Positions 40,601 to 54,491 of a DNA stretch of 64,000 nt are shown here, one piece after another. The stretch covers positions 1-64,000 of the forward strand of contig NZ_POAF01000003.1 in NCBI RefSeq assembly GCF_003309065.1. Reading direction: 5' to 3'. The DNA is from Glutamicibacter soli. Its GTDB lineage: Bacteria; Actinomycetota; Actinomycetes; Actinomycetales; Micrococcaceae. Every line of letters starts with the position of its first letter. Within the stretch, counting starts at the first letter, position 1. Under the pieces are notes generated by a model. It was not told the DNA's origin and did not search any database. It saw nothing but the letters and a program-made list of their open reading frames with translations. Both the position numbers and the translations under genes were made by a program.

Positions 40601-41151
40601 AGCAGCTTGGTGGTGCCCTCCAGGCGGCGGGCTGCTTCGCCCTCGCCCAGGATGGCCTCGCCCAGCAGGTTGACGTTCAGGTTGACGCCTTCGCGCTTGA
40701 TCTTGGAGATCGCGCCGCCCAGCTTGGCGTCGGAGGCGTCGATGATCAGGTGGCCGACCATCTCGCGCAGCACCTTGCGGGCCGCCGGAACCACGATCTG
40801 CGGCACGATCGGCGCCATGACGCCGCCCAGGCCAACTGCCTTGCGCATGTACCACGGCAGGAAGGCCGGCACCTTCGGGGCCAGGGCCTTGAGGTTGGCG
40901 GCGGCGACGTTCAGGTCCTCGGGACGGATCACGCCGTCGACGAAGCCGACGGTGAAGTCCAGGCCGTTGGGGTCCTTGAGCACTCCGGCCAGGCGGGCGG
41001 CGGAGGCGTCGGTCGGGAACTGCGCGGCTTCGGTGAGCCAGCGGCGGACCAGCTTGATGGCGTCGTCGGCCAGTTCGGCCGGGGTGGTCATGGTGTTGCC
41101 GGCGGCGTCGACGGCCGGCGGCACGAGGTGCTGGGTGTTGGTGGAAGACAC
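37633..41151 (-). CDS. putA: Bifunctional proline dehydrogenase / L-glutamate-gamma-semialdehyde dehydrogenase
   Basis: 1172 residues oxidising proline to glutamate. The N-terminal FAD proline-dehydrogenase barrel (about 60-480) shows YVSIKVSATVAPHNHW, FINLDMEEYKDLELT and RVVKGANLPMET. The aldehyde dehydrogenase domain has PPWNFPMAIPAGS, the Glu in PLLAETSGKNAI and the catalytic Cys in GHAGQKCSASS. There is no N-terminal ribbon-helix-helix DNA-binding domain, so it does not regulate its own gene. The GTG at 41151 has AAGGGA 7 nt upstream; the in-frame extension to 41193 lacks support. It is divergent from a LysR gene and close to putP. Confidence 0.95.
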   Translation of the reverse strand: MSSTNTQHLVPPAVDAAGNTMTTPAELADDAIKLVRRWLTEAAQFPTDASAARLAGVLKDPNGLDFTVGFVDGVIRPEDLNVAAANLKALAPKVPAFLPWYMRKAVGLGGVMAPIVPQIVVPAARKVLREMVGHLIIDASDAKLGGAISKIKREGVNLNVNLLGEAILGEGEAARRLEGTTKLLARDDVDYVSIKVSATVAPHNHWAFDEAVEHIIEKLKPLYELANRGSKKKFINLDMEEYKDLELTIAVFTRILSMDEFKNLEAGIVLQAYLPDALGAMIQLQDFASARVADGGAPIKVRVVKGANLPMETMEADIHGWPLATWHTKQDSDTSYKMVIDYALRPEHVKNVRIGVAGHNLFDVALAWLLAKSRGVTKGIEFEMLLGMATGQAEAVRREVGELLLYTPVVHPEEFDVAIAYLIRRLEEGASQENFMSAVFELEKNEALFQREKDRFLASLEAMSEQVPAPHRVQNRQIQDEALAGKVQGLIEGTTGFFNTPDTDPDLAQNRAWGREILAKMQDSSLGKDLVSSHTIHSSSELDEAIAMGVDAAAGWQALGSAKRAEILHRAGQLFEERRATMLEVLGSECGKTIDQGDVEVSEAIDFAHYYAQRGRDLDSVDGATFVPSKLTVVTPPWNFPMAIPAGSTLSALAAGSAVIIKPASQAARIGAVMVKALWDAGVPKDVLQLVFVGERELGTQLVSDARVDRLILTGGYETAELFRSFRKDLPLLAETSGKNAIIVTPHADLDLAAKDVVQSAFGHAGQKCSASSLVVLVGSVATSRRFNSQLIDAVKSLKVGYPWNPESQMGPLIGEPGEKLKRGLTTLGAGERWELKPEQLDDSGKLYSPGVRYGVKRGSEYHLTEYFGPILGVMTAETLEEAVAMVNEIDYGLTSGLHSLDQDELAYWLENIQAGNIYVNRGITGAIVQRQPFGGWKKSAIGAGTKAGGPNYLVGMGSWTDAPVTETAALSTFDERLLITAGLDEADTQWLSAALGSDKLWWNTEFNQAKDRSGLQAERNVFRYRPVDVTVRYENETSGHGIAEALRVLAAGVTAGSRVVFSADVELPRGVRNLLAEHSVTVVREDAAGFAARAAKLAAKTGPQSSARIRLIGGSLSEVAEATNGKPDVAIYASNVTGAGRVELLPFLHEQAVSITAHRFGTPNHLSDSLI

Positions 41152-41286
41152 TTGTGGTCCCTTCGATGCGGTTCGTACATGGGGGTTCGGCACCGAACGC
41201 TCAGGTCGTTTTTGGGCTGTGCTGGCCGCCTGCTCCGGTCAGGAACCACGCGCCACGCGAAGCTGTGTGCAAGATTGAGTATGACC

Positions 41287-41307
41287 CTTTTGCGGGTTAA
41301 GCAAAAG
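41287..41307. promoter_or_regulatory. Inverted repeat CTTTTGC-N7-GCAAAAG, put operator candidate
   Basis: Perfect 7-bp arms between putA and the divergent LysR gene, lying within a possible putA promoter (TTGCTT and CATACT on the minus strand). A second imperfect repeat CCGAA-N8-TTCGG lies at 41317-41334. Both suit a LysR-type regulator binding two sites. Confidence 0.55.
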
Positions 41308-41389
41308 TGAACAAAACCGAAGGATTTCATTCGGGTTTGCTAATGTTTCCACAGGGTCTGAAATTCACCGGAAAACGCGGGGGTAAACC

Positions 41390-42346
41390 ATGCTTGAACT
41401 GCGCCGATTGCGGCTGCTTCGGGAATTGAGCATCCGCGGCACCATCGCGGAGGTCGCCGACGTGCTCAGCTACTCCCCTTCCTCGGTTTCGCAGCAGCTC
41501 ACCCAGCTGGAGGCGGAAGCGGGCGTGGAGCTGCTGCGCCGCACCGGACGCACGCTGCAGCTGACCCCGCAGGCCCAGGTCCTGGTGGCCCACACCGAGG
41601 AACTGCTTGGCTCCATGGAGCGGGCCGAAGCGGCGCTGGCCGCCACCTTGTCCACGGTCACCGGTACCGTGCGCCTGGCCGTGTTCCAAACCGCCATGCT
41701 GGCCCTGATGCCGCCGGTACTGCGCGAGCTGCGCACCACCTACCCGCGCCTGCGGGTGGAGATGAGCCAGCAGGAGCCGGCCGAGGCGCTGCACGAAACC
41801 AGCAGCCGCAACTTCGACCTGGTGGTCGCCGAGCAGTACCCCGGGCACGCCGCACCGCACTATGAAAACCTCGACCGACGAGTGCTGACGCACGACGCCA
41901 TCCGGTTGGCGCTGCCGGCCCGGGGTGCGGCGGGCAATGCCGAATTCGACCGGGTCGCCACCTTGGAGCACGCCGCGCACCTGCCCTGGGTGATGGAGCC
42001 GGAGGGTGCGGCCAGCCGCCACTGGGCCGAGCAGTCCTGCCGGCTGGCCGGCTTCGAGCCGGACGTGCGCTACGAAACCGCGGACCTGCAGGCCCATCTG
42101 CAGCTGGTGGCGTCCGGCAACGCGGTGGCGCTGCTGCCCGCACTGGTGCTGCGCACCGATTCCGGGACGCTGCGCGCGGTCGAGCTGCCGGGCGCGCCGA
42201 TGCGCACCATCTTCACCGCCATGCGGCATTCCTCGACCCAGTCCCCGGCCATGCAGGCGGTGCGCTCGCTGCTGCACCGGCAGCCTGGAATGATCGACGA
42301 GCAGGGTTCGGCCGACCCGCCGCCGACCAAACGGCTCCTTCGATGA
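41390..42346 (+). CDS. LysR family regulator, probable control of proline genes
   Basis: 318 residues. The winged HTH is at the very start (RLLRELSIRGTIAEVADVLS, YSPSSVSQQLTQLEAEAGVE), followed by the effector domain (TGTVRLAVFQTAMLALMPPV). GGGGG lies a few nt before the ATG. Position between divergent putA and downstream putP makes proline regulation the obvious inference, but the effector is not shown by sequence. Confidence 0.88.
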   Translation: MLELRRLRLLRELSIRGTIAEVADVLSYSPSSVSQQLTQLEAEAGVELLRRTGRTLQLTPQAQVLVAHTEELLGSMERAEAALAATLSTVTGTVRLAVFQTAMLALMPPVLRELRTTYPRLRVEMSQQEPAEALHETSSRNFDLVVAEQYPGHAAPHYENLDRRVLTHDAIRLALPARGAAGNAEFDRVATLEHAAHLPWVMEPEGAASRHWAEQSCRLAGFEPDVRYETADLQAHLQLVASGNAVALLPALVLRTDSGTLRAVELPGAPMRTIFTAMRHSSTQSPAMQAVRSLLHRQPGMIDEQGSADPPPTKRLLR

Positions 42347-42487
42347 GTTGGGTCACATTTCGGTAACAACGCTCCGGACGGAACGCGACAAACCCTCCAA
42401 TTGGTGCCATAGTGGTGACTCGCACCACAAGACCCGCGTCCCGCCCCGGTACATCATCGCGGCGGGCAGAACAGGTTATGAGGAAAC

Positions 42488-43993
42488 ATGTCCGACCAGA
42501 CTTTTCAGATGATCGCGATCGCGATCTACATGGCCGCCATGCTTGGCATCGGCTATATCGCGTATCGCCGCACCAACAACATCGATGACTACATGCTGGC
42601 CGACCGCGGCCTGAAGCCCTGGGTGGCCGCGCTGTCGGCTGGCGCCTCGGACATGTCCGGCTGGCTGCTCATGGGCCTGCCCGGTGCCATCTACCTGGGC
42701 GGCATGCACGAAGCCTGGATCGCCATCGGCCTGCTCATCGGCGCCTGGCTGAACTGGAAGTTCGTGGCCCCGCGCCTGCGCTCCTACACCGCCATCGCGC
42801 AGAACGCGATCACCATCCCGAGCTACTTCGAGAAGCGCCTGAAGGACGGCACGCACATGCTGCGCATTGCCTCCTCGATCATCATCCTGGGCTTCTTCAC
42901 CTTCTATGTCTCCTCGGGCATGGTGGCCGCCGGCAAGTTCTTCGACTCCACCTTCAACTGGCCGTACATGACCGGCCTGCTGTTCGTCGCCGGCATCACC
43001 CTGCTGTACACGCTGTTCGGCGGCTTCCTGGGCGCCTCGCTGACCGACATGGTCCAGGGCCTGCTGATGTTCGCGGCCCTGGTCGCGGTGCCGATCGTGG
43101 CAGTCCTGCAGGTCGGAGACATCAATACCCTGGGCCAGCGCATCACCGACGCCAACCCGGTGGCCTTCAACCTGTTCTCCTCCTTCGACGGCAACGGCAC
43201 CTTCCTGGCCATCGTCGCGATCTTCTCCACCGCAGCCTGGGGCTTCGGCTACTTCGGCCAGCCGCACATCCTGGTGCGCTTCATGGCGCTGCGCACCCCG
43301 GCCGAGGCCAAGAGCGCACGCCGCATCGGCATCGGCTGGATGTTCCTGACCACCCTGGGCGCGGTGTGCACCGCACTGATCGGCATCGCCTACTTCGCCG
43401 ACGCCCCGCTGGACAAGTCCAGCAGCGAGACCGTCTTCCTGCTGCTCAGCCAGGTCTTCTTCCACCCGCTGATCGCCGGCCTGGTGTTGGCGGCGGTGCT
43501 GGCGGCGATCATGTCCACCATGTCCTCGCAGCTGATCGTCTGCTCCTCCGCGCTGGTGGAGGACCTGTACAACATCGCCGGCCGCAAGGCCTCCCCGAAG
43601 GCCCTGGTGAATCTGGGCCGCGCCGGCGTGCTGGTTATCGCGGTCATCGCCGTGCTGCTGGCGCTGGACCCGAATTCATCGATCCTCAAGCTCGTATCGT
43701 TTGCCTGGGCTGGCTTCGGCGGCGCCTTCGGCCCGATTGTGCTGCTGAGCCTGTACTGGCGCAAGCTGACCGCCATAGGCGCCTTCGCCGGCATGGTCTC
43801 CGGCGCCGTGGTCGTCTTCGTCTGGGGCAACATCCCAGATCTTTCGAATGCAATGTATGAAATCGTTCCTGGCTTCGCTATCAACCTGCTGGTTGCCTGG
43901 CTGGTGTCCCTGGGCACCTACCGCCACAACGAGCAGGTGCAGGAAGAATTCACCGAAATGGAGAACGAGCTCGGCGTCAAGGTCACCGCCTAA
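42488..43993 (+). CDS. putP: Sodium/proline symporter
   Basis: 501 residues with 13 predicted membrane segments (SSS family). Marker motifs: DDYMLADRGLKPWVAALSAG with SDMSGWLLMGLPGAIYLGG, which is the PutP sodium-site region, and GFGYFGQPHILVRFMA. It takes up proline with sodium for PutA. GAGGAAAC lies directly upstream. It is 141 nt after the LysR gene, with a GTGGTG-N5-CACCAC repeat (42412-42428) between. A terminator follows. Confidence 0.95.
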   Translation: MSDQTFQMIAIAIYMAAMLGIGYIAYRRTNNIDDYMLADRGLKPWVAALSAGASDMSGWLLMGLPGAIYLGGMHEAWIAIGLLIGAWLNWKFVAPRLRSYTAIAQNAITIPSYFEKRLKDGTHMLRIASSIIILGFFTFYVSSGMVAAGKFFDSTFNWPYMTGLLFVAGITLLYTLFGGFLGASLTDMVQGLLMFAALVAVPIVAVLQVGDINTLGQRITDANPVAFNLFSSFDGNGTFLAIVAIFSTAAWGFGYFGQPHILVRFMALRTPAEAKSARRIGIGWMFLTTLGAVCTALIGIAYFADAPLDKSSSETVFLLLSQVFFHPLIAGLVLAAVLAAIMSTMSSQLIVCSSALVEDLYNIAGRKASPKALVNLGRAGVLVIAVIAVLLALDPNSSILKLVSFAWAGFGGAFGPIVLLSLYWRKLTAIGAFAGMVSGAVVVFVWGNIPDLSNAMYEIVPGFAINLLVAWLVSLGTYRHNEQVQEEFTEMENELGVKVTA

Positions 43994-44018
43994 GCGCCGC
44001 CCGCGCCAACCTGCATAT

Positions 44019-44066
44019 GGCTCCCGCCATCCCCGGACCCAGGGGACGGCGGGAGCCGTTGTTTTC
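44019..44066 (+). terminator. Terminator of putP
   Basis: GGCTCCCGCC pairs with GGCGGGAGCC and the inner CCCC with GGGG around a short loop. GTTGTTTT follows. Confidence 0.85.
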
Positions 44067-44183
44067 CCCGAACAGCAGATCGCGTAACAGTCCGAGCACA
44101 CGTCCGGTTCCTGCCCACCGAACAGCCTTCCACCAAGTAGCCTTGGGATAAGCCGCAAGCTCCACGACGCAGGGGGAATCTCG

Positions 44184-45584
44184 ATGAGCAGCACCAAGAA
44201 GTTCACGCACTGGCAGCGCACTGAGTCGCAGTTCCTGGCGGCGGGCGCCGACGCCGTGTATTCGATCGTCGGAAACCTCTCGCAGACCGGGCACTGGATG
44301 AAGCAGCTGGGCTTCACGGTGCATGACGACCAGCGCGGAGTCGGCACCAAGGTGGACCTGCTGCCTCCGGGCAAGGTCTTCGGCCCGTTGCACCGGGCCA
44401 CCGCGCCGTCCGGCTCCATCACCCGCCGCAACCAGGCCGCACGCATGGTCGAGTTCACCCAGCCTCAGCCCGGCGGTTCCATGGTGCTGCGCTGGCGCGT
44501 CGACGAGCACGAAGGCGGCTGCATGCTGCACTTCACCGTCGAGCTGCACGGACCGGGCACCACCGCCTTCAAGTTCACCGTGGGCAAGGACCTGTGCGAG
44601 GACTTCGCCGTGTCCGCAGCCCGGCTCTACCGGCTGATCGCCCACACCGCGCACATCAAGCTCAACGCCCATGTGGTCATTGCCGGCGGGCGCGGGTTCC
44701 TGGGCCGCAACCTCGCCGCGGACCTGGTCTGCCGAGGTGCCTCGGTGGCGGTGCTTTCGCGCACCCGCGAGGCTGATTTCCCCACCGAACAGTACATCTG
44801 GGATGGGCAGCACCAGGGTCCGTGGACCGGTGCCTTCGCCAGCGACCGACCGGTGCACCTGGTCAACCTGGCCGGCGAGCGCGTGGACAAGCGCAACACC
44901 GCCCAGAATATCGCCGAACTGACAGATTCGAGGGTGCGCACCACCCGTACGCTGGCCGAGGCCACCGCCAAGGGCTCGAAGCTGGCCACCTGGATCCAGT
45001 CCAGCACCACCGCGATCTTCTCCGATGCCGGCGAAACGGAACTCACCGAGTCCAGCCCCATCCCCACCGGCGAGCAGGCGCTGCCCGAGATGACCGGTGT
45101 TGCCGCCGCGTGGGAGAAGGCGTTCACCCAGGCTCAGGTCAATGCCGAGCACCGCTACATCCTGCGCACCTCCCTGGTCATGCATCCGGACGCCCCGTTG
45201 CTCGGCCCGCTGAATCTGCTGGCGAACACCGGGCTGGGCGGAAAGCTGGGCCACGGCAAGCAGTGGTTCAGCTGGATCGGCATGGATGATTGGCTGCACG
45301 TCATCCGTTGCCTGCTGCGCCTTGAAGCACCTGAAATCCCCGACGGAATCGTGCACGCCACGGCCCCGAATCCGCTGCGCAACGAGGAAGTGATGACAGC
45401 CCTGCGCTCGCTGGCCGGGATGCCCGGTGTGCCGACCGGGAGCCTGATTCCCACGGTGGGCGCGGCGGTCATGGGCACCAATGCCCGGGTCATCCTGACA
45501 GGACGCAAGGCGACCAGCACTGTCCTTCGCGACGCAGGTTTCGAATTCAAGGAGCTGGATTTCGCGGCGACCGTTGGTCGCTAG
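44184..45584 (+). CDS. TIGR01777 family SDR/epimerase with N-terminal SRPBCC domain
   Basis: 466 residues. Residues 1-155 form an SRPBCC-like domain (SIVGNLSQTGHWMKQLGF, MVLRWRVDEHEGGCMLHF). An extended SDR Rossmann domain then begins with HVVIAGGRGFLGRNLAADLV (GxxGxxG) and contains LVNLAGERVDKR and IQSSTTAIFSDAG. A C-terminal DUF1731 segment closes it (TAPNPLRNEEVMTALRSLAG). The reaction is unknown. GGGGG precedes the ATG. Confidence 0.92.
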   Translation: MSSTKKFTHWQRTESQFLAAGADAVYSIVGNLSQTGHWMKQLGFTVHDDQRGVGTKVDLLPPGKVFGPLHRATAPSGSITRRNQAARMVEFTQPQPGGSMVLRWRVDEHEGGCMLHFTVELHGPGTTAFKFTVGKDLCEDFAVSAARLYRLIAHTAHIKLNAHVVIAGGRGFLGRNLAADLVCRGASVAVLSRTREADFPTEQYIWDGQHQGPWTGAFASDRPVHLVNLAGERVDKRNTAQNIAELTDSRVRTTRTLAEATAKGSKLATWIQSSTTAIFSDAGETELTESSPIPTGEQALPEMTGVAAAWEKAFTQAQVNAEHRYILRTSLVMHPDAPLLGPLNLLANTGLGGKLGHGKQWFSWIGMDDWLHVIRCLLRLEAPEIPDGIVHATAPNPLRNEEVMTALRSLAGMPGVPTGSLIPTVGAAVMGTNARVILTGRKATSTVLRDAGFEFKELDFAATVGR

Positions 45585-45604
45585 CCGGATCCGGGATAGG
45601 TCGG

Positions 45605-45751
45605 TGGATCTTTCGTAGATCCTCCGGCCTTCGCCATGTCATTTCGGGTCACAAAAGCTCAGGCCGAGGCGCTGCCCGCAGCTTCGCGCCATGTCACCGG
45701 GCGGCAGCGGGCGACACCGGCCAATGTTCATCGGCCGTTCACCGCCCGGTG
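45605..45751 (+). ncRNA. Structured leader upstream of the ATP-grasp/NylB-like operon
   Basis: The 262-nt gap before the ATP-grasp gene contains a small hairpin (GGATCT-N5-AGATCC, 45605-45621) and a nested structure: outer stem CACCGGGCGG (45695-45704) with CCGCCCGGTG (45742-45751), inner stem CGGCC (45718-45722) with GGCCG (45733-45737). All arms pair perfectly. It could be a cis-regulatory RNA. It matches no riboswitch class I know. Confidence 0.4.
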
Positions 45752-45846
45752 TTCCGGCGCTCACCGCAAGCGCTGAGCATGAAACTGTCACACCCCGTGC
45801 GCGCAGTGACCTGCCTCTTGACCGTTTGAGAAGGACCGACTCCGAC

Positions 45847-47469
45847 ATGGCCAATGTTCTCGAAGCTTCATCCCACATCACACGTCCACGAATCCCGAAG
45901 CCCAGCGAGCTGTCCAAGCTGCGCCATCAGGTCCAGGCCACCGAAGGCTTGAACGCGAATGTCGCTACCGACGCCGCCTACAACGACGAGCCCCATCCCG
46001 AAGCGGCCCCGCAGGTGCTGCCTTTCGGACGGCAGCTGAAGAACATGAGCGAGGTGCGCCATTTCTTCCGGACCAATCAGACGCCGATCTATTTCATTGG
46101 CGCGACCCCGGTGAACCTGCTGGGGCTGGACCGCTGGGTTCGAAAGTTCAGCTACATCACCTATTACGACGGGTGGGACGGACAACATCCACGCGTCTTC
46201 ACCCCCAGTGAGAAACCCTATGTCGAATTCGACAGCGCCGAGGAGATCAACAACTGGCTGCTGGAGAACTCGGAGGTCCGCGAATTCATCGACTCCCAGC
46301 GCACCGTCGGCGGGCCGAAGCCCAAGGTCGCCATGGTGTTTTTCAACGAAGAGACCGAATCCATCTGCGAAGAGCTAGGCTACGACCTGATCCTTCCCCC
46401 GGCTGCGCTGCGCACCGAACTTGATTCAAAAATCGTCACTACCAAGCTGGGCAACGCCGCCGGAGCTCCCTCGGTGCCCAATGTGCTGGGCACCGCTTCC
46501 AGCTACCACGAGCTGATGGCCTTGGCGCGCAAGGGCAAGCTCGGAAACGACCTGGTGGTGCAAACCCCCTACGGCGATTCGGGCAAGACAACATTCTTCA
46601 TCGCCAACGAAGAGAACTGGAACCAGTATTCGAAGTACATTCTCGGCGAAGACCTCAAGGTCATGAAGCGCATCAACAACCAGCCGGTGGCCGTCGAGGC
46701 GGTCCTGACCCGCTGCGGCACCGTGGTGGGACCGATCCTCACCGAACTGGCCGGTTACAAGGAGCTCACTCCCTACAAGGGAGGGTGGTGCGGCAATGAA
46801 ATGCACCCAGATATCCTCACGGACTCGCAGCGAGCGCGGGCCATTGAGCTGGTGCGAAACGTCGGCAGCGGCCTGCAGAATACCGGGTACCGCGGCTTCT
46901 TCGAAGTCGACGTGCTGGTGGACACCGACACCGATGAGGTGTACCTGGGCGAATTGAATCCGCGCATCTCAGGGGCCAGCGCAATCACCAATGTCACCGC
47001 CGGCGCCTACGCGGACGTTCCGCTGTTCCTCTTCCACCTGCTGGAGTACCTCGACGTGGACTTCAAGCTGGACGTGGACGAGATCAACGAACGCTGGCAG
47101 GAGATGTCCGGGGCTGACGTATGGAGCCACATGATCATCAAGGAAACCGACGACATCCTCCAGTACCTGACCCACGCGCCGCGCACGGGCAACTACTACC
47201 TCGATTCCCGCGGCAAACTGCAATTCTCCCGCTCGGCCCTGGACTGGCACCAGCTTCAGAACCACAAGGAAGCGTTTTTCCTGCGCATCTACGGCGAGCA
47301 CGACTACCGTTGGAAGGGAGCCGATCTTGGGGTCCTGGTCACCAAGGCCAAGCTTCAGTACGAAGGCAAAAAGAAAACCAAACTCACCATCGATGCCAAG
47401 CATTTCATTTCCTCCATCCGCTCCCAGTACAAGGGCATCGACGTTCCTCCCAATGACAATGGACATTGA
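45847..47469 (+). CDS. ATP-grasp enzyme (biotin-carboxylase-like, unassigned ligase)
   Basis: 540 residues. The ATP-grasp core shows a nucleotide-binding lysine region (VVQTPYGDSGKTTFFIANEE), KVMKRINNQPVAVEAVLT, and the metal-binding end FEVDVLVDTDTDEVYLGELN followed by PRISGASAITN. It lacks the biotin carboxylase HCS motifs and other acetyl-CoA carboxylase parts, so it more probably joins a carboxylate to an amine. The 130-residue N-terminal part (FRTNQTPIYFIGATPVNLLG) is not recognised. The next gene, a NylB-like amide hydrolase, overlaps it by 17 nt. The ATG at 45847 follows AAGGA. Confidence 0.8.
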   Translation: MANVLEASSHITRPRIPKPSELSKLRHQVQATEGLNANVATDAAYNDEPHPEAAPQVLPFGRQLKNMSEVRHFFRTNQTPIYFIGATPVNLLGLDRWVRKFSYITYYDGWDGQHPRVFTPSEKPYVEFDSAEEINNWLLENSEVREFIDSQRTVGGPKPKVAMVFFNEETESICEELGYDLILPPAALRTELDSKIVTTKLGNAAGAPSVPNVLGTASSYHELMALARKGKLGNDLVVQTPYGDSGKTTFFIANEENWNQYSKYILGEDLKVMKRINNQPVAVEAVLTRCGTVVGPILTELAGYKELTPYKGGWCGNEMHPDILTDSQRARAIELVRNVGSGLQNTGYRGFFEVDVLVDTDTDEVYLGELNPRISGASAITNVTAGAYADVPLFLFHLLEYLDVDFKLDVDEINERWQEMSGADVWSHMIIKETDDILQYLTHAPRTGNYYLDSRGKLQFSRSALDWHQLQNHKEAFFLRIYGEHDYRWKGADLGVLVTKAKLQYEGKKKTKLTIDAKHFISSIRSQYKGIDVPPNDNGH

Positions 47470-48691
47470 TTCGGCGGGCCCTCCCGGCGATGGCGTCCTT
47501 CCCGCCCGGCCTGAACCCGCAGGCGCCCTGTCCATCGCCAACTGGCAGGCCCCGCAGAACGTCAAGCGCTCGTTCCAGAACATCGCACGCATCCACCCGA
47601 CCGTACGGGTCTCCCGCGGCGATGGGCCGATCGTCAAGCTGCCGCTGGCCGAGGAGAAGCTCGGCAAGCTCGAGGTCGCCAAATCCAGCTTCACCGATCC
47701 AGCCCTGACGGTGCGAGGAGTCATCCACGCGACGAATACCGACGCGGTGCTCGTCATCCACAACGGACGGATCCTATGGGAGAAGTACTACAACACGATG
47801 ACCGCGCAGAGCGACCATCTGCTGATGTCGGTGAGCAAGACGCTGGTGGGCACCTTGGCCGGCGCACTCGCCGATGCCGGGCTGCTGGATGTGTCCCGGC
47901 AGGTGTGCAGCTACGTTCCGTCGCTGGCGCGCACCGGTTATGCCGGGGCCAGCGTGCGCGACATCCTCGATATGCGCTCGGGCATCCAGTTTTCGGAGGA
48001 GTATCTGGATCCCAACGCCGAGGTGCGTCTGCTGGAAGAGGCCATCGGCTGGGCGCCGGAGCGCGGATCAATCGGCCCGGTCGGGATGTACGACTTCCTG
48101 CTGACGCTCAAGGCCAAGGGACCCCATGGCGGACCGTTTGAGTACCGGTCCTGTGAAACCGACGTGCTGGGCTGGGTCTGCGAGGCTGCTGGCGGAGCTC
48201 CGATGCAGCAGCTGCTCTCCGAATACGTGTGGTCGAAGCTCGGCGCCCAGCAGGATCTGCTGATGGGTGTGGACCAATTCGGGACCGGAATGTTCGACGG
48301 CGGCTTCAACACCACGCTGCGGGATCTGGCCCGCTTCGGGCACCTCTACGTCAACGGCGGCCGCGCACTGACCGGGAAAGCGGTGCTTTCTCCGGCGTGG
48401 ATTGAGGATACCTTCCGGCAAAGCGATGAGCTGTTCCAGGCGTTCGCCCAGTCGCCGGGAGAGAACCTGATGCCCGGTGGCCGGTACCGCAACCAGATCT
48501 GGTTCCCCAATCCCGCCACGAATGCGGCGGTGGCGCTGGGCATCCACGGGCAGATGATCTACATGGATCCCGCGGTGAAGCTGGTGGCGGTCAAGCTCTC
48601 CAGCTGGCCCTTGCCGCAGGATGCTTCCAAGCTCTTCCCCACCCTGCGGGCGTTCGAGGCCGTGGCACGGCACTTGGGATGCCCGGCCTGA
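47453..48691 (+). CDS. Serine hydrolase, beta-lactamase fold (NylB-like)
   Basis: About 412 residues. The nucleophile motif is SVSK (LLMSVSKTLVG), followed by a Tyr motif (FEYRSCETDVLG) and a late HGQ (ALGIHGQMIYMD) in place of the KTG of beta-lactamases. This set matches 6-aminohexanoate-dimer hydrolase (NylB) and related esterases/amidases. No signal peptide, so cytoplasmic. Starts at 47453 or 47459 lie inside the ATP-grasp gene, so the two are coupled. Making and hydrolysing the same type of amide bond would fit the pair. Confidence 0.85.
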   Translation: MTMDIDSAGPPGDGVLPARPEPAGALSIANWQAPQNVKRSFQNIARIHPTVRVSRGDGPIVKLPLAEEKLGKLEVAKSSFTDPALTVRGVIHATNTDAVLVIHNGRILWEKYYNTMTAQSDHLLMSVSKTLVGTLAGALADAGLLDVSRQVCSYVPSLARTGYAGASVRDILDMRSGIQFSEEYLDPNAEVRLLEEAIGWAPERGSIGPVGMYDFLLTLKAKGPHGGPFEYRSCETDVLGWVCEAAGGAPMQQLLSEYVWSKLGAQQDLLMGVDQFGTGMFDGGFNTTLRDLARFGHLYVNGGRALTGKAVLSPAWIEDTFRQSDELFQAFAQSPGENLMPGGRYRNQIWFPNPATNAAVALGIHGQMIYMDPAVKLVAVKLSSWPLPQDASKLFPTLRAFEAVARHLGCPA

Positions 48692-48707
48692 ACCCGTAGG
48701 CCGCAAA

Positions 48708-48748
48708 GCAACGCCCCGGCCGCTCTCTGGCAGCGTCCGGGGCGTTGC
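48708..48748. terminator. Bidirectional terminator hairpin
   Basis: GCAACGCCCCGG pairs perfectly with CCGGGGCGTTGC across a 17-nt loop, between the convergent serine hydrolase and decarboxylase genes. There is no U tract on either side. Confidence 0.6.
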
Positions 48749-48762
48749 GGCGGGCTGCGCCG

Positions 48763-51498
48763 CTAGCTGTCGGCGGCGAATTCGCGCAGCGCGCGGTTCG
48801 TGAAGACCTGGTAGCCCAGGTCCGGATGGTATCCGTGGATCTCGCGGGTATCGAGCACGTCCATGTAGCGCATGATCTCCATGGTGACGACCTGCCCCGG
48901 CACCAGCACCGGGAAGCCCGGCGGGTACGGCGTGACGAACACCGCGGAAACCACCCGTTGCCCGGCGCCGATGCGCTCCTTGATCTGGGCCGAGGAGAGG
49001 AACTGGGTGGCCGGGTCCTGATACGTCAGGTAGTAGGCGGCGCGCATGTTGCCGCTGCCGCCACCACCGGCGAACTGCGGGGCAAATGAGCTGAAATCGG
49101 GAAGCGGGATCTGTCCCGGCCCCTCCACGGTGCCCATGGCCAGCACGCGGCCGTCGATCCGGCTCTGGCGTTCCAGGCCCTCGGCGATCTTCACCAGCAC
49201 CTCGATCAGGTGCGCCGCGGCCGAACGGGTCGTGCCGATATTGGTCATCAGCAGCACCGAGCTGCGGCTGGTCTTGTTGACCTGGATCGAATGCCCGTCC
49301 ATCAGGTAGGTGTGCTTGAACGTGTCCCCGTCCACTTCGGTCCGGCTGATGTCCAGCGTCAACCGCGACGGGTCGACCACCAGCTCGTCCTGCTGCCAGG
49401 ATTCGTCCCAGACCGCCAGCCCGTCCCGCACCGGATTCACCGTCCGCGTGCAGCGGTATTCCTCCGGGATCAGGTCCGCGGTGTTCAGGATGCGGAAGTA
49501 CTTGCTCAGCAGCTTGTTCCGGCTGACTGCCCTGGCGATCGACTGGGCGAGGTCCACCTGCCGCTGGACCAGCGCGTAGCCTTCAAGTTCCGCCTGCCGG
49601 CGCCCGATATCCAGCGAAGCGAGGATCTGGTAGTTCGGCGAGGTCGAGGTGTGGGTCATGTAGGCTTCGCGGAACGTATTCAGGTTCCTGGCCGCGAAAT
49701 CCTGGTCGTAGATGTGGATCATGGATCCCTGGCGCAGGGAGGTCAGGGTCTTGTGCGTCGATTGGGTTGAATACACCCGCAGGCGGACGGCCTCGGGATC
49801 CGGAATCAGCCGGGTGCGCAACCAGGCTTCGTCGTTGGCTGGATCCTGCGCGGTACCGGGCTCGGGCAGCGCGGCGGCCTGGGCCGCGTAGCGCTCCTGG
49901 TACTCTACGGTCTCCATTTGCGCTTCCATACGGGCCGCGGCGGTCATGCCGGTGCGCTGGCGGTAGACCGGATGGAAGCCGGCGAAGGCGAACCAGGCCT
50001 CGTCCCAGAGGAACACGAGGTCGGGCTTGATGGCGAGGCATTCCTCCATGACCCGGCGCGGATCGTAGATGATGCCGTCGAAGGTGCAGTTGGTCAGCGT
50101 CAGCATCTTGACCTTGTGCAGCAGCCCCTCGCGGCGCAGCTGCAGCAGCCGGCCCTTGATTTCCTGAAGCGGCACCGCGCCGTACATGGAGTGCTCGTTG
50201 AGCGGGTAGGCCTCCAGATAGCTCACGTTCGCCCCGGCCAGCACCAGCGAATAGTGGTGCGACTTGTGGCAGTTGCGGTCCACCAGCACGATGTCCCCCG
50301 GGGCGAGGATCGACTGGTGCACGATCTTGTTCGCGGTCGAGGTCCCGTTGGTGACGAAGTAGGTGCGGTGGCTCCGGAAGGCCCGGGCCGCCAGTTCGTG
50401 GGCCTTCTTGATGGAGCTCTGCGGGTCCAGCAACGAGTCCAGCCCGCCGGAAGTCGCCGAGGTCTCGGCCAGCAGCAGGTTCTTGCCGTAGAAGTCCACC
50501 AGGTCGCGCGCCCACGGCGAATTCTTCACCGAGGCGGCCCGGGAGATCGGCAGCGCGTGGAAGACCCCGCCCGGGCGCTTGGCGTACTTCTGCAGCGCGG
50601 CGAAGAACGGGGTGTCGTAGCGGTCGGTGATCTCGGCGAGGATCGACAGATGCAAATCCATGCGGTCATTGCGCGAGAAAATGCGGCGGAAGCGCCCGGT
50701 GATCTCATGGGCGATGGATTCAAGCGCAACCCCGGCGATCAGGTACACCGGCAGCTCGGGGCGCAGCTTCTCCAGGATCTGTTCCAGGTCCAGCAGCCCC
50801 TGGATCTGGCGCCGGGAGGTGAAGTATCCCGCCATCCGCCCGGCGATGAAGTTCTGCAGCGTGGAACTGAGCCGGCGGCTGGATTCCAGCGAATACCTGG
50901 CCGAAAGCACCACCGACTGGATCGAGGGGTTGATGACGATCGCCGCCAGCGCGTCCTCGACGCTGGGAACCACCACGAAGTTGTAGTGGAACGGATCGGT
51001 GCGCTGGCGCTGCTCGAGGATTTCCTCCTTGAAGCGTTCGATTTCCTCCGCCGGGCCATTGTCCACCAGCAGGATCTCGACCTGCGGAACCGTGCGCGCG
51101 CCGTGCTGCTGGGGGCCGCCATGGGAGGCGCCTCGTTCAGCAGGCTCGGGCGCGGCGCTGTCATGGCCATCGGCATCGAAGTACTGGGTCTGGGTCCGGA
51201 AGGTCTGGTTGGCCTGGTAGACCAGATGCATGGCGTCCTCGTAGTGCCCGTCGGACATCAGGGCGGCCACGCGGTTGAAGTATTCAAGCCCCGGATTGGC
51301 CCAATAGGGTTCGATCGCGGACAGCAGCCCGAGCAGCCGCCCGGCTTCCTGCTCGTTCTCCCGTCGTCCGGCTTCGTCGACCGGGATGGAGGCGATCTCG
51401 CTGAGTACGTAGCCCAGGTGTTCCCACGCGTCTTTGCGTTTTCTCCACGCGCTCTCCGGCGTCGCGATTGCCTGCTTGTTGCTCTTGGCTAACCTCAT
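48763..51498 (-). CDS. PLP-dependent Orn/Lys/Arg-type decarboxylase
   Basis: 911 residues of fold-type I. An N-terminal wing-like receiver-fold region (VEILLVDNGPAEEIERFKEE to about residue 260) precedes the core. The core shows TYFVTNGTSTANKIVHQS (phosphate loop), LVDRNCHKSHHYSL, VFLWDEAWFAF (Asp499) and the PLP Lys583 in STQSTHKTLTSLRQGSMIHI. It decarboxylates a basic amino acid to a diamine; which one cannot be told. Longer than the usual 710-750 residues. The ATG at 51498 (GTG at 51504 possible) has a distant GAGAGGA. It converges on the ATP-grasp operon. Confidence 0.88.
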   Translation of the reverse strand: MRLAKSNKQAIATPESAWRKRKDAWEHLGYVLSEIASIPVDEAGRRENEQEAGRLLGLLSAIEPYWANPGLEYFNRVAALMSDGHYEDAMHLVYQANQTFRTQTQYFDADGHDSAAPEPAERGASHGGPQQHGARTVPQVEILLVDNGPAEEIERFKEEILEQRQRTDPFHYNFVVVPSVEDALAAIVINPSIQSVVLSARYSLESSRRLSSTLQNFIAGRMAGYFTSRRQIQGLLDLEQILEKLRPELPVYLIAGVALESIAHEITGRFRRIFSRNDRMDLHLSILAEITDRYDTPFFAALQKYAKRPGGVFHALPISRAASVKNSPWARDLVDFYGKNLLLAETSATSGGLDSLLDPQSSIKKAHELAARAFRSHRTYFVTNGTSTANKIVHQSILAPGDIVLVDRNCHKSHHYSLVLAGANVSYLEAYPLNEHSMYGAVPLQEIKGRLLQLRREGLLHKVKMLTLTNCTFDGIIYDPRRVMEECLAIKPDLVFLWDEAWFAFAGFHPVYRQRTGMTAAARMEAQMETVEYQERYAAQAAALPEPGTAQDPANDEAWLRTRLIPDPEAVRLRVYSTQSTHKTLTSLRQGSMIHIYDQDFAARNLNTFREAYMTHTSTSPNYQILASLDIGRRQAELEGYALVQRQVDLAQSIARAVSRNKLLSKYFRILNTADLIPEEYRCTRTVNPVRDGLAVWDESWQQDELVVDPSRLTLDISRTEVDGDTFKHTYLMDGHSIQVNKTSRSSVLLMTNIGTTRSAAAHLIEVLVKIAEGLERQSRIDGRVLAMGTVEGPGQIPLPDFSSFAPQFAGGGGSGNMRAAYYLTYQDPATQFLSSAQIKERIGAGQRVVSAVFVTPYPPGFPVLVPGQVVTMEIMRYMDVLDTREIHGYHPDLGYQVFTNRALREFAADS

Positions 51499-51765
51499 CG
51501 TCACGGTTGCCGTTGTCCTCTCAGCTCTGCAGCACGAACCGATGCTCGATCGGTGACGGAAGCGTCCTGCGCTGCCTTCTAATCGAGACAATAGGCGAAA
51601 TCTTGCGCCCTTTTGAGGGCCAGAAGCGCATATGACGGATTATGATCGGCTATCAGCCAAGAATTCTCCTTCCGTTAACCGGCTTCGCGTTCGCCGCAAC
51701 CGGGCTACTGCGCTGGCCCCGCCAACGGGACCTATCGGGTCCTGTCGGCTGCCGGGTGCGTCCGG

Positions 51766-52731
51766 CTACCGTCCGCTGGCCGTGGAGACGAGCCGTCCTC
51801 CGCGCTTGCGGGCACCGAGCACCACCGAGGTGCGCAGCTGTACCATCTGCCCCCAGTCGGTCTGCGCGATGAAGCGGTACAAGTCCTGCTGGGAAGGCAC
51901 CGTCACGTCGACCAGCAATTGCGCGTCCCCGGCGATGGCCGCCAGATAGCGCACCTGCGGCAGCTGGCTCAGGCGCTGGCCCAACTCGTCGATGCGCTCC
52001 GGGGAGACCTGCACCCATAGCAGCGCTTCGACCGGAAGTCCCAGCAAGGCAGGCTCCACCAGCGTGCGGATGCTGATGTGCTCCCCGCGCAGCAGCGCCT
52101 CCACCCGGCGCGATACCGACGATTCCCCGAGTTTCACCTGGCGGGAGATCGCCTCGATGCTCGCCCTGCCGTCGCGGCGCAACGCATCGATGATCGTCAG
52201 GTCCGTTGCGTCCAGCGCCTCGGTCGGATGCCATTCGGTGCGTTCGCCCCCGACCTCCGGCTCCAGCATCCGCAACTGCGCGGTGCTCAGGTTCCCGGCC
52301 CTCCAGCCCCTGATGGTCTTGAAGAATTTCAGGATCGGATACACCTGGATCTGGCTCAGCCCCGGGGTCGCCGGCAGCTGGAGGGTCAGGATGTCTTCCA
52401 GTCCCCCGTCGTAGTGCAGTTCGCTGACCACGTCGCTCTGCCCCGTCACCATATAGGTGAAGCTCGTGTCAGCTCGGGCCGACAGTGCCTCGCTGGCCAC
52501 CGGAACCGTGCCCGGAACGCAGTTCAAGGCCGCGATCACCGCTCCGGCACGATGGCGGATGGCGGCGATGTTCACCTTGCCGTCCTCCAACAACGCGGCC
52601 CCGTGCCGCGCCACCGTGCGTTCTGGCTCGTCCAGGACCTTGGCGATTTTGCGCCAGGTGGCCCGGCCGTCGACCTGGAGGGCCATGACTATGCGTTGCT
52701 CGAGTTCGCCCAACTCCTGAAAATCAACCAT
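51766..52731 (-). CDS. Lrp/AsnC family regulator with two tandem modules
   Basis: 321 residues from the ATG at 52731. There are two HTH domains: LGELEQRIVMALQVDGRATW with KIAKVLDEPERTVARHGAAL, and DLTIIDALRRDGRASIEAI with VKLGESSVSRRVEALLRG. Each is followed by a RAM-like ligand domain (TSFTYMVTGQSDVVSEL; AGDAQLLVDVTVPSQQDLYR). A fused Lrp pair, about twice normal length. It is divergent from the DUF5058 operon across a 9-bp inverted repeat and 267 nt upstream of the decarboxylase on the same strand. Confidence 0.9.
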   Translation of the reverse strand: MVDFQELGELEQRIVMALQVDGRATWRKIAKVLDEPERTVARHGAALLEDGKVNIAAIRHRAGAVIAALNCVPGTVPVASEALSARADTSFTYMVTGQSDVVSELHYDGGLEDILTLQLPATPGLSQIQVYPILKFFKTIRGWRAGNLSTAQLRMLEPEVGGERTEWHPTEALDATDLTIIDALRRDGRASIEAISRQVKLGESSVSRRVEALLRGEHISIRTLVEPALLGLPVEALLWVQVSPERIDELGQRLSQLPQVRYLAAIAGDAQLLVDVTVPSQQDLYRFIAQTDWGQMVQLRTSVVLGARKRGGRLVSTASGR

Positions 52732-52866
52732 GACTTCAACTTTCGGGCTAATCCGACCGGGGCGCAACATTCGTCCGTCGGCTGACCGGCAGATGACGAA
52801 TTCAGTTGCCAATTGCCCTATTGAACGACATCTGGACCCTCGAAATGCGGGAAATCGTCAGACACT

Positions 52867-52891
52867 TGGCAAGAATCCCCATTTCTTGCCA
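52867..52891. promoter_or_regulatory. Inverted repeat TGGCAAGAA-N7-TTCTTGCCA
   Basis: Perfect 9-bp arms in the 240-nt divergent region between the tandem Lrp regulator and the DUF5058 operon. This is the best symmetric site there and the likely operator. Confidence 0.65.
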
Positions 52892-52971
52892 TCGATGGGC
52901 ATGCTCGGTCACCGTTAAAGCTACGAGATCCACCTCACACCGCACCTCGACCTCCCCCGCAAGGAACCACC

Positions 52972-53718
52972 ATGCAAACGCCTTTAGCAGTGGCAGCCGC
53001 CGACCCGAGCTCGACGAACATCTGGGCCATCGCCAACACGCCGTTCCTCTGGATCTGTGTCCTGGGCGTCTTCGCCGTCATCTTCGTCCAGACAGTGCTC
53101 TACGCCAAGGCCGCCACGGCCGCCGCACCGCACATCGAGATGCCGGTCCGCGAGCTGAAGGAGGCGTTCCGCGCTGGCGCGGTGGCCTCCATCGGCCCGT
53201 CGCTGGCAGTGGTGCTGGTCGCCATCGCGCTGCTGGCGCTGTTCGGCACCCCGGCGGTGCTGGTGCGCATCGGCCTGATCGGCTCGGCCGCCGCCGAAAC
53301 CGCCTCGGCCAGCATCGCCGCCGGAACCATGGGCGCCTCGCTGGGCGGGGACAGCTACACCCAGCAGGTCTTCGCCGTCGCGTTCATGGCCATGAGCCTG
53401 TCCGGCGCGATGTGGATGCTTTGCACGCTGATCATGACCCCGCTGCTGAAGAAGGGCGGCAAGTCGCTGGCCAAGCGCAACCCGGCGGTCATGGCCCTGA
53501 TTCCCACCGCCGCGCTGCTCGGCGCGTTCTCCGCGCTGACCATCGCCGAACTGCCGAAATCCAACGTGCACCTGATCCTGGTCGGGATTTCAGCCGCCGC
53601 TATGGGCCTGTGCCTGTACCTGGCCAAGGCCCTGCACCAGAAATGGCTCAAGGAATGGGCGCTGGGAATCTCCATCGTCATCGCCCTCGTATCCGCCTAC
53701 TACCTGCATACCGCCTAA
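52972..53718 (+). CDS. DUF5058 family membrane protein
   Basis: 248 residues with about five membrane segments. Family-like stretches are ANTPFLWICVLGVFAVIFVQ at the start, VASIGPSLAVVLVAIALLAL and FGTPAVLVRIGLIGSAAAET. The function of DUF5058 is unknown; the glycine/alanine-rich helical core looks like a transporter half. AAGGA lies 6 nt before the ATG. The next gene, another membrane protein, starts 9 nt downstream and an M20 amidohydrolase follows, so the three form an operon. Confidence 0.85.
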   Translation: MQTPLAVAAADPSSTNIWAIANTPFLWICVLGVFAVIFVQTVLYAKAATAAAPHIEMPVRELKEAFRAGAVASIGPSLAVVLVAIALLALFGTPAVLVRIGLIGSAAAETASASIAAGTMGASLGGDSYTQQVFAVAFMAMSLSGAMWMLCTLIMTPLLKKGGKSLAKRNPAVMALIPTAALLGAFSALTIAELPKSNVHLILVGISAAAMGLCLYLAKALHQKWLKEWALGISIVIALVSAYYLHTA

Positions 53719-53727
53719 GGATTGACC

Positions 53728-54447
53728 ATGAGCGCAACCTCGCTTTCCGCCAATGCCGCAGCCTCCATGGAGCGCTTCGACCGGCAGACCAGCCGCTACG
53801 GCTCCATCACCATGGCCCTGGGGTTGATCCTCTCGCTGGCCGGCCCGATCTACATCGCGTTCTTCAGCGGCATGGAAGTGACCGCCAGCATGGTCTGGGT
53901 GGCGCTGCTGGCAGTGGCCGCCACCTTCGGGGTGCTGTGGGTAGTCGAGCCGCTGACCTACTTCCCGATCCTCGGTTCCGCCGCCATGTACCAGGCGTTC
54001 ATGATCGGCAACATTTCCAACAAGCTGCTCCCGGCGGCCATCGTGGCCCAGTCTGCCATTGACGCGAAGCCGGGCACCAAGCGCGGCGACCTGGCCGCGG
54101 TGATGGCCATCTGCGGCGCCGCCACCGTGCACCTGACCAGCCTGCTGCTGTTCGTGGGCGTGCTGGGCACCTGGCTGGTGCACAGCATCCCCGTCGAGGT
54201 CATCGAGGTCGCCCGCCTGTACATCCTGCCTTCGCTGATGGGCGCGGTGCTGGTGCAGTGCATCGTCTCCATGAAGGCGCTGCGCCCGACCATCGTCGCG
54301 GTCGTCGCGGCCCTGCTGGTGAACTTCGTGGTGGTCCCGCTGGCCCCGGCCACCGGCGCCTTCGCCACCGCTTTGGTCGTCATCGCCTCCATTGTCTTCT
54401 CCTGGGTGCTGCGCAAGCGCACCACCCAGGCTTCCTCCGAGCACTAG
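53728..54447 (+). CDS. Membrane protein partner of DUF5058
   Basis: 239 residues with about six membrane segments (ITMALGLILSLAGPIYIAFF, MVWVALLAVAATFGVLWVV, VHLTSLLLFVGVLGTWLV and others) and a conserved-looking loop LTYFPILGSAAMYQAFMIGN. No named family recognised. It begins 9 nt after the DUF5058 gene (AAGG 8 nt upstream of the ATG), so the two probably make one transporter with two different subunits. Confidence 0.8.
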   Translation: MSATSLSANAAASMERFDRQTSRYGSITMALGLILSLAGPIYIAFFSGMEVTASMVWVALLAVAATFGVLWVVEPLTYFPILGSAAMYQAFMIGNISNKLLPAAIVAQSAIDAKPGTKRGDLAAVMAICGAATVHLTSLLLFVGVLGTWLVHSIPVEVIEVARLYILPSLMGAVLVQCIVSMKALRPTIVAVVAALLVNFVVVPLAPATGAFATALVVIASIVFSWVLRKRTTQASSEH

Positions 54448-54491
54448 CTGCCTTCCGCGAACCAGCCACTACAAGCAACCAGGACCCCGCC

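Follow-up and report, generated by a model that had tools for sequence, protein, structure and literature searches.

A 64,000-nt stretch of contig NZ_POAF01000003.1 from Glutamicibacter soli (hereafter the window) encodes two overlapping genes, LIG, an ATP-grasp ligase of 540 residues (45847..47469, + strand), and NYL, a NylB-like SxxK amide hydrolase of 412 residues (47453..48691, + strand). We consider a role of the pair in the catabolism of diamines or basic amino acids to be probable. A more specific model, in which LIG caps and NYL uncaps the intermediates of a catabolic route through N-acylated diamines, is an evenly balanced proposition. More tentatively still, and with less than even confidence, we propose that the pair represents a new type of diamine catabolism, present in Pseudomonadota as well as Actinomycetota and carried also on rhizobial symbiosis plasmids, whereby an ATP-grasp enzyme would cap putrescine, cadaverine or agmatine and a NylB-like or C45 hydrolase would remove the cap from the oxidised product. 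In the source genome (3.84 Mb) LIG starts at an ATG at 45847 and ends with the stop codon 47467-47469, while NYL runs from an ATG at 47453 to the stop codon 48689-48691, so that the two reading frames share 17 nt, and translation of NYL is likely coupled to that of LIG through this overlap.

LIG scored 710.3 bits against NF005096/PRK06524, over the curated cut-off of 684, and is thus a member of this family, which NCBI names 'biotin carboxylase'. A single-sequence Pfam search with LIG gave no match at E<=0.001. Its profile is distantly akin to biotin carboxylase and to the ATP-binding domain of carbamoyl-phosphate synthetase (CPSase); hhalign matched it to three genuine biotin carboxylases of its own genome (probability 96%, 223 columns) and a profile search of the PDB returned pyruvate carboxylase at the top (E 4.3e-9), and on these matches we regard LIG as a distant ATP-grasp relative. 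Biotin carboxylases carry ExNxRxQVEH at the bicarbonate/biotin site. This motif was found in all five genuine biotin-dependent-type enzymes of the own genome that were examined, whereas LIG reads ELNPRISGAS at the site, with SGAS replacing QVEH, which rules out a standard biotin carboxylase. A biotinyl motif was not found in LIG (three of the five genuine enzymes show one within the stretch examined), and none of the eight neighbouring window genes scanned was a biotinyl or carboxyltransferase partner. An earlier note on this DNA had described LIG as biotin-carboxylase-like without a carboxylase partner, and its question of whether LIG might be a standard biotin carboxylase after all was thus answered in its favour. 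Judged from these residues, the NCBI family name for PRK06524 is probably wrong. A biotin-independent N-carboxylase acting on an amine or guanidine by the chemistry of PurK or CPSase would agree with the distant profile kinship; with QVEH replaced, and with a usual partner that is an amide hydrolase, for which a carbamate has no need, we hold this to be very improbable.

LIG was aligned with its relatives using 33 of 40 rows (L116 was left out because of a stop codon, and L051, L063, L068, L086, L090 and L123 by choice). Invariant over the 33 members are T308, P309, G312, G313, W314, G316 and N317, as are E369, N371, P372 and R373. The Pfam model for glutathionylspermidine synthetase matched neither LIG (E<=0.001) nor any of the 33 aligned members (E<=1). 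Among the matches listed, the closest named relative is G. protophormiae, with 96% identity in LIG.

NYL matches PF00144 and, by phmmer, 6-aminohexanoate-dimer hydrolase with 225 bits (E 1.5e-65), and is about 37% identical to NylB. The SVSK nucleophile motif and the HGQ motif on which the earlier note had based this likeness lie at residues 126-129 and 365-367, and the catalytic residues S126, K129 and Y231 are present. No signal-peptide-like start was seen in NYL by eye, no prediction tool having been used. In the 73 NYL proteins adjacent to LIG, S112, K115, Y170 and Y215 (NylB numbering) are kept in 73/73. Asp181 and Asn266 of NylB are reported to be important for hydrolysis of the 6-aminohexanoate dimer (PMC7019077, available excerpt); position 181 is E in 65/73 and position 266 is D in 72/73, and the window NYL carries E and D there. 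NYL also has arginines where NylB differs, at R169 (72/73), R175 (73/73), R192 (68/73) and R346 (66/73) in its own numbering. From these conserved residues we infer that the acyl part of the substrate bears a positive group and at least one carboxylate, and would therefore be amino-acid-like.

The coupling of LIG to an amide hydrolase was followed through LIG loci drawn from genome contigs, plasmids and a phylum sample of 396 genomes, 15 of which encode LIG. The family is large: of 585 stretches that matched the search pattern, at least 538 encode a relative. Loci L045-L124 were taken as the best-scoring 80 of these, and close relatives therefore dominate among them. Amide hydrolase genes lie within 1.5 kb of LIG in 95 of 105 loci. 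In this count one site enters twice (L043/L157), one assembly is represented by two contigs (L106/L107) and several of the loci are close congeners; L173 (= L088) was excluded. The partner is NYL alone in 73 loci, a C45/Ntn hydrolase alone in 18 and both in four, and it stands downstream of LIG in the same direction in 63 loci for NYL and in 20 for C45. Thus the coupling of a bond-forming to a bond-cleaving enzyme, as first suggested from the window alone, is strongly supported, and the adjacency, which might have proved rare elsewhere, is widespread.

We then placed the partners on a LIG tree of 102 of the 105 loci (L107, L121 and L157 left out), a quick tree with several long branches and a midpoint root. 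C45 partners fall in Pseudomonadota and in one separate actinobacterial clade, while NYL partners fall, with few exceptions, in most other actinobacteria; at least six switches among NYL, C45 and both were counted on it. Since the partner is an amide hydrolase almost without exception, yet belongs to either of two unrelated types, the amide bond itself would seem to be the important feature. The earlier note had suggested a dedicated amide or oligomer metabolite; an amide fits the context, and nothing was seen that points to an oligomer. Four of the ten loci with no hydrolase within 1.5 kb end within 300 nt after LIG, two others (L097 and L124) have NYL or C45 at 4-6 kb, and L041 has transposase genes downstream of LIG. 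Two mycobacterial assemblies carry two LIG genes each (L064 + L099; L067 + L095), one copy accompanied by NYL and a copper amine oxidase and the other with no hydrolase in the retrieved stretch.

The window pair faces OKR (48763..51591, - strand), a pyridoxal-phosphate enzyme of the Orn/Lys/Arg decarboxylase family, which is convergent with LIG–NYL and was recognised by family scans. Among 58 relatives, LIG (over the cut-off) and OKR occur in the identical set of 18, and G010, the only congener without LIG, also lacks OKR. In a 197-genome sample of the family, 29 genomes have both, four LIG only, seven OKR only and 157 neither; outside the own genus the corresponding figures are 18, 4, 7 and 156. 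Fisher tests of this co-occurrence ignore kinship, and their p-values are too small. OKR is thus found in 29 of 33 LIG-bearing genomes, and in 11 of the 29 (G001, G004, G006, G008, G022, G449, G456, G476, G483, G499 and G518) it is unlinked, at least about 34 kb away or on another contig. OKR adjoins LIG also in rhizobia, Roseobacter and Cupriavidus.

Neighbouring genes were clustered in the retrieved 10-kb stretches of 86 of 87 loci (L121 had no called LIG frame), using an open reading frame (ORF) caller that favours GC-rich third positions and may overextend starts or call false frames. Families were named on the genes of L054 and L109, and otherwise on single cluster representatives. The recurrent clusters were aldehyde dehydrogenase (27 loci), amino-acid permease (16), class III transaminase (13), OKR (12), CoA-transferase (10), a glutaryl-CoA-dehydrogenase type (8), copper amine oxidase (7), an agmatinase family (5), NAD-glutamate dehydrogenase (5) and agmatine deiminase (4). 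With NYL and C45 excluded, amine-pathway genes made up 48/326 of the genes at up to 2.5 kb from LIG, 29/310 at 2.5-5 kb, 16/331 at 5-7.5 kb and 19/234 beyond. At least one amine-pathway cluster was present in 49 of the 86 loci, and at least two kinds in 25.

Several loci carry more complete sets. In L054 and L056, clusters for agmatine deiminase, nitrilase, NAD-glutamate dehydrogenase, aldehyde dehydrogenase, transaminase, copper amine oxidase and permease stand together, and most of these clusters are present in L052/L053. The best models for the L054 deiminase and nitrilase are agmatine deiminase and N-carbamoylputrescine amidase, both under the cut-off. In L095, L109 and L120 the transaminase, aldehyde dehydrogenase, CoA-transferase and glutaryl-CoA-dehydrogenase clusters are found together. 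The L109 transaminase lies over the cut-off for gamma-aminobutyrate (GABA) transaminase (537.7 against 506.65), the acyl-CoA dehydrogenase of this locus matches glutaryl-CoA dehydrogenase 3SWO with 746 bits, and its CoA-transferase has succinate-glutarate CoA-transferase as best model, with 360 bits, under the cut-off of 750. On Shinella and Roseateles plasmids, LIG-C45 lies within an arginine catabolic operon according to the existing annotation. As a side observation, in four Glutamicibacter loci in which OKR does not adjoin LIG (L183, L184, L185 and L187) a gene of one and the same cluster lies alongside in 4/4; its sole scanned member, in L183, is histidine ammonia-lyase by NCBIfam, and a PanD-like gene was recognised by eye in three of the four.

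Were the pair to act on peptides or D-amino-acid conjugates in general turnover, the amine genes would be mere neighbours in catabolic regions, and the neutral surroundings in several genera, together with the amino-acid permeases and peptide transporters close by, would be accounted for. The co-occurrence of LIG with a decarboxylase that is often unlinked, and the recurrence of the diamine-gene association in several genera, make this quite improbable.

As the catabolism of diamines or basic amino acids is the recurring context, the amide is more probably a transient catabolic intermediate than an end product. In the route that we envisage, OKR, or agmatine deiminase/agmatinase in other lineages, would supply putrescine, cadaverine or agmatine. 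LIG would spend ATP on turning a small carboxylate (an amino-acid carboxylate being the likeliest) into an acyl phosphate and would join the activated acyl group to one amino group of the diamine. The free end might then be oxidised by the copper amine oxidase or an aminotransferase followed by aldehyde dehydrogenase, the cap blocking cyclisation to pyrroline or piperideine. NYL, or elsewhere the non-homologous C45 Ntn hydrolase, would cut the amide to release GABA or 5-aminovalerate, with the cap being recycled. Finally, class III transaminase and aldehyde dehydrogenase would lead to succinate, or to glutarate entering through CoA-transferase and glutaryl-CoA dehydrogenase.

Two R. leguminosarum plasmids and S. 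meliloti RU11 pSymA share the gene order OKR-LIG-C45-ABC transporter-amidase-RpiR-NYL. On the symbiosis plasmid NZ_CP016290.1 (L155:10205-31006), nifHDKEN follows OKR with one small hypothetical gene between. When the nifH, nifD, nifK and nifE proteins were used as tblastn queries, no match appeared in the 40-kb pSymA stretch (L157) or the 34-kb stretch of R. leguminosarum CB782, and the nif neighbourhood therefore applies to the one plasmid NZ_CP016290 only. In CB782 (CP007070.1, L156:12708-15357) two LIG-like genes stand in tandem, and the amidase matches in pieces only. The available part of the CATCH-N study lists adiC SMa0684 and arcABC among the symbiosis-essential genes of pSymA, which gives arginine genes of this plasmid a weight in symbiosis; LIG is not mentioned in this portion, and words starting with 'hydrolase' or 'carboxylase' are absent from the paper's text (PMC7268258). 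With its oligopeptide-type ABC transporter and amidase, and lying beside nifHDKEN on NZ_CP016290, the module would suit a small biosynthetic system, much as with opines or rhizopines in rhizobia: LIG would build a diamine or basic amino acid into an amide for secretion or storage, which the hydrolase would then mature or recycle. However, the transporter includes a substrate-binding protein, i.e. it serves uptake, and no biosynthetic cluster was recognised in the 16 actinobacterial loci examined in detail, which leaves this alternative improbable.

Upstream of LIG lies a leader of 262 nt (45585-45846), the length given in the earlier note, whose fold has a z-score of -2.84, with 2/200 shuffles as good. 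Two elements account for this stability, a nested stem and a smaller hairpin. The nested stem described there (45686..45760, + strand) was said to have perfect arms; its 10-nt core is indeed perfect, whereas the full 19-nt arms (45686-45704/45742-45760) are 79% complementary, and those of the smaller hairpin (45598-45611/45617-45630) are 86% complementary. This stem is not conserved in congeners, its pairs being formed in 48.8% of alignment cells. The smaller hairpin (45598..45630, + strand) starts 13 nt past the upstream stop codon, and of 16 leaders just those of the window and G. protophormiae have it intact; one of its pairs is altered on both sides, T-A here and C-G in G. protophormiae, and its pairs have letters on both sides in just 2-4 of the 16 aligned congeneric leaders. 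It is probably the terminator of the upstream gene, a putative one without a T-run. The leader pair count exceeded that of shuffles on 3 of 5 measures (0/500), and that of slid versions too, a weak excess, since the structure was derived from one of the aligned sequences, so that covariation, which the earlier note had proposed as a test, is unproven. With no Rfam match at E<=1 within 40000-55000, the large stem paired in under half of the cells and the hairpin lettered in so few rows, a conserved RNA leader or riboswitch was rejected, and the structured leader of the earlier note is not supported in that sense.

Instead, a PHO box together with the terminator-like hairpin accounts for the leader better than a conserved RNA element would. 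The box, GTTCATC-N4-GTTCACC (GTTCATCGGCCGTTCACC; 45726..45743, + strand), is a perfect site 103 nt before the LIG start codon and is better conserved than the leader stems. PHO boxes of S. coelicolor are direct repeats, with GTTCACC the most conserved part and four less conserved bases, according to the accessible part of PMC4415409. The own genome has two perfect boxes, the second lying between phoU and a sensor kinase/response regulator pair that we read as senX3-regX3. Allowing at most one mismatch gave 14 sites, against two for the reversed pattern; of the 12 that carry one mismatch, a single site stands ahead of a PstS-type binding protein and another ahead of a PHO4 transporter, and beside the other ten no phosphate gene was recognised by eye. 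Among 17 congeneric LIG loci, counting that of the window, 7 have the exact box. As a general feature of LIG it was rejected, as outside Glutamicibacter the best upstream scores were at most 12/14, like those of other genes. The leader may also hold a 16-codon upstream ORF, MKLSHPVRAVTCLLTV (45779-45829), and the sequence GAGCATGAAACTGTCAC surrounding its start recurs in many congeners.

Control by a PHO box would be more in keeping with a stress response than with a pathway for using a carbon source, which bears on a reading in which amines are capped reversibly for storage or detoxification, LIG capping a polyamine and NYL uncapping it with no oxidation between. A ligase and amidase acting on a polyamine have a precedent in the E. 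coli glutathionylspermidine synthetase/amidase, described in the available excerpt of PMC9397018, and many loci consist of only LIG and a hydrolase in neutral surroundings. The transaminase, aldehyde dehydrogenase, copper amine oxidase, GABA transaminase, CoA-transferase and glutaryl-CoA dehydrogenase neighbours point instead to full degradation, and we regard storage or detoxification as unlikely.

A number of observations weigh against the proposed catabolic route. It leaves the PHO box unexplained. The rise of amine genes near LIG is modest (14.7% against 4.8-9.4%), and 37 of the 86 loci are without any amine-pathway cluster. The names given to the deiminase, the nitrilase and the CoA-transferase come from best matches under curated cut-offs, and the aldehyde dehydrogenase, permease and CaiB clusters are broad families. 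The window pair adjoins OKR only, with no transaminase, aldehyde dehydrogenase or copper amine oxidase beside it, the sole copper amine oxidase of the own genome being on another contig. Pairs in Brevibacterium, Kocuria, Leucobacter and Microbacterium lie mostly among genes without an amine link, the exceptions being aldehyde dehydrogenase in some Brevibacterium loci, a transaminase in one Leucobacter locus and OKR about 5 kb off in one Kocuria-like genome. The own genome further encodes two members of the glutamine-synthetase family and a hydrolase weakly resembling PuuD, and a Puu-type route may therefore coexist. To these are added the four LIG-only and seven OKR-only genomes of the family sample, two genera (g8 and g277) that have LIG and OKR in separate genomes, and three loci (L064, L067 and L115) with no hydrolase in the retrieved stretch despite room downstream.

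In the window, an Lrp/AsnC regulator identified by family scan (51766..52812, - strand) lies upstream of OKR on the same strand. It directly adjoins OKR in three of five compared Glutamicibacter loci that have OKR beside the pair (window counted) and is one gene further away in one more, and it is possible that it belongs to the OKR/LIG/NYL unit. On the 5' side of LIG come genes for a TIGR01777-type oxidoreductase, PutP and a LysR regulator. At 52972-55700, in divergent orientation to the AsnC regulator, lies a block coding for a DUF5058 membrane protein, an M20 peptidase and a further protein without assignment; some congeners keep it with the locus.

PRK06524 was not found in the PMC literature, outside which most subscription papers lie. 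There, 6-aminohexanoate-dimer hydrolase together with biotin carboxylase gave no paper, nor did ATP-grasp with 6-aminohexanoate and operon; ATP-grasp appeared in none of the papers on gamma-glutamyl, diamine or polyamine catabolism among the matches listed. C45 family peptidase with ATP-grasp led to azaserine biosynthesis only, and ATP-grasp with putrescine and cadaverine only to E-64 biosynthesis and a Penicillium transcriptome. The E-64 pathway was rejected as a precedent for a diamine-using ATP-grasp enzyme: in the part of PMC12568646 at hand, the ATP-grasp enzyme couples an acid with an amino acid, and attachment of the diamine falls to an ANL-type synthetase. PDB 8RLJ, followed through an excerpt of PMC13269358 as a functional hint for LIG, led nowhere. 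Within the PMC literature, a LIG–NYL/C45 diamine route thus looks undescribed. If correct, it would give a function to an unassigned enzyme family and a testable amine route in soil actinobacteria and rhizobia. N-acyl-omega-amino acids would in that case be what NylB-like enzymes act on natively, suggesting a natural origin for the nylon-oligomer hydrolase; nylonase is a much-discussed example of new enzyme function, and the model offers a candidate ancestral substrate class for it. An unexpected tie to phosphate status comes with the Glutamicibacter-specific PHO box.

Among known systems, the Puu/Pau gamma-glutamylation routes (PuuA/PauA, PuuB/C and PuuD/PauD, with GlnA2/GlnA3 in Streptomyces) share the logic of the proposed model. 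PuuA has the glutamine-synthetase fold, and the uncapping hydrolase of Puu/Pau is of the C26 type. In the Puu route, as given in the accessible part of PMC9397018, a ligase caps the diamine, oxidation follows, a hydrolase uncaps the product, and GABA transaminase and semialdehyde dehydrogenase complete the pathway; the products of GlnA2 of Streptomyces are described in the available text of PMC8998196. In our model LIG would stand in place of PuuA, and NYL or C45 in place of PuuD. In contrast to the Puu/Pau enzymes, however, LIG is ATP-grasp-like, and the hydrolase is of the SxxK or C45 Ntn kind. The oxidation and transaminase genes accompany the pair in relatives (L054, L095, L109 and L120), whereas in the window OKR alone adjoins it.

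The glutathionylspermidine synthetase/amidase GspSA is one fused protein of an ATP-grasp-type ligase and a CHAP amidase. It resembles the pair in that a ligase of this type and an amidase act on one polyamine amide, and differs in its fusion, LIG and NYL being two genes, and in the Pfam synthetase model that LIG does not match. In Drosophila, the Ebony protein, which is similar to non-ribosomal peptide synthetases, makes beta-alanyl-dopamine, which the C45-type Tan cleaves. The likeness lies in a ligase that makes an N-acyl amine and a C45-type hydrolase that cuts it, and the difference in the synthetase-like nature of Ebony and in its substrate. NylB itself differs from NYL in sequence (37% identity), in E/D replacing D181/N266, in the extra conserved arginines and in the nylon context, which NYL does not share. 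It is nonetheless of the same family, with S112, K115, Y170 and Y215 kept in NYL, and its leaving group is an omega-amino acid, like GABA or 5-aminovalerate.

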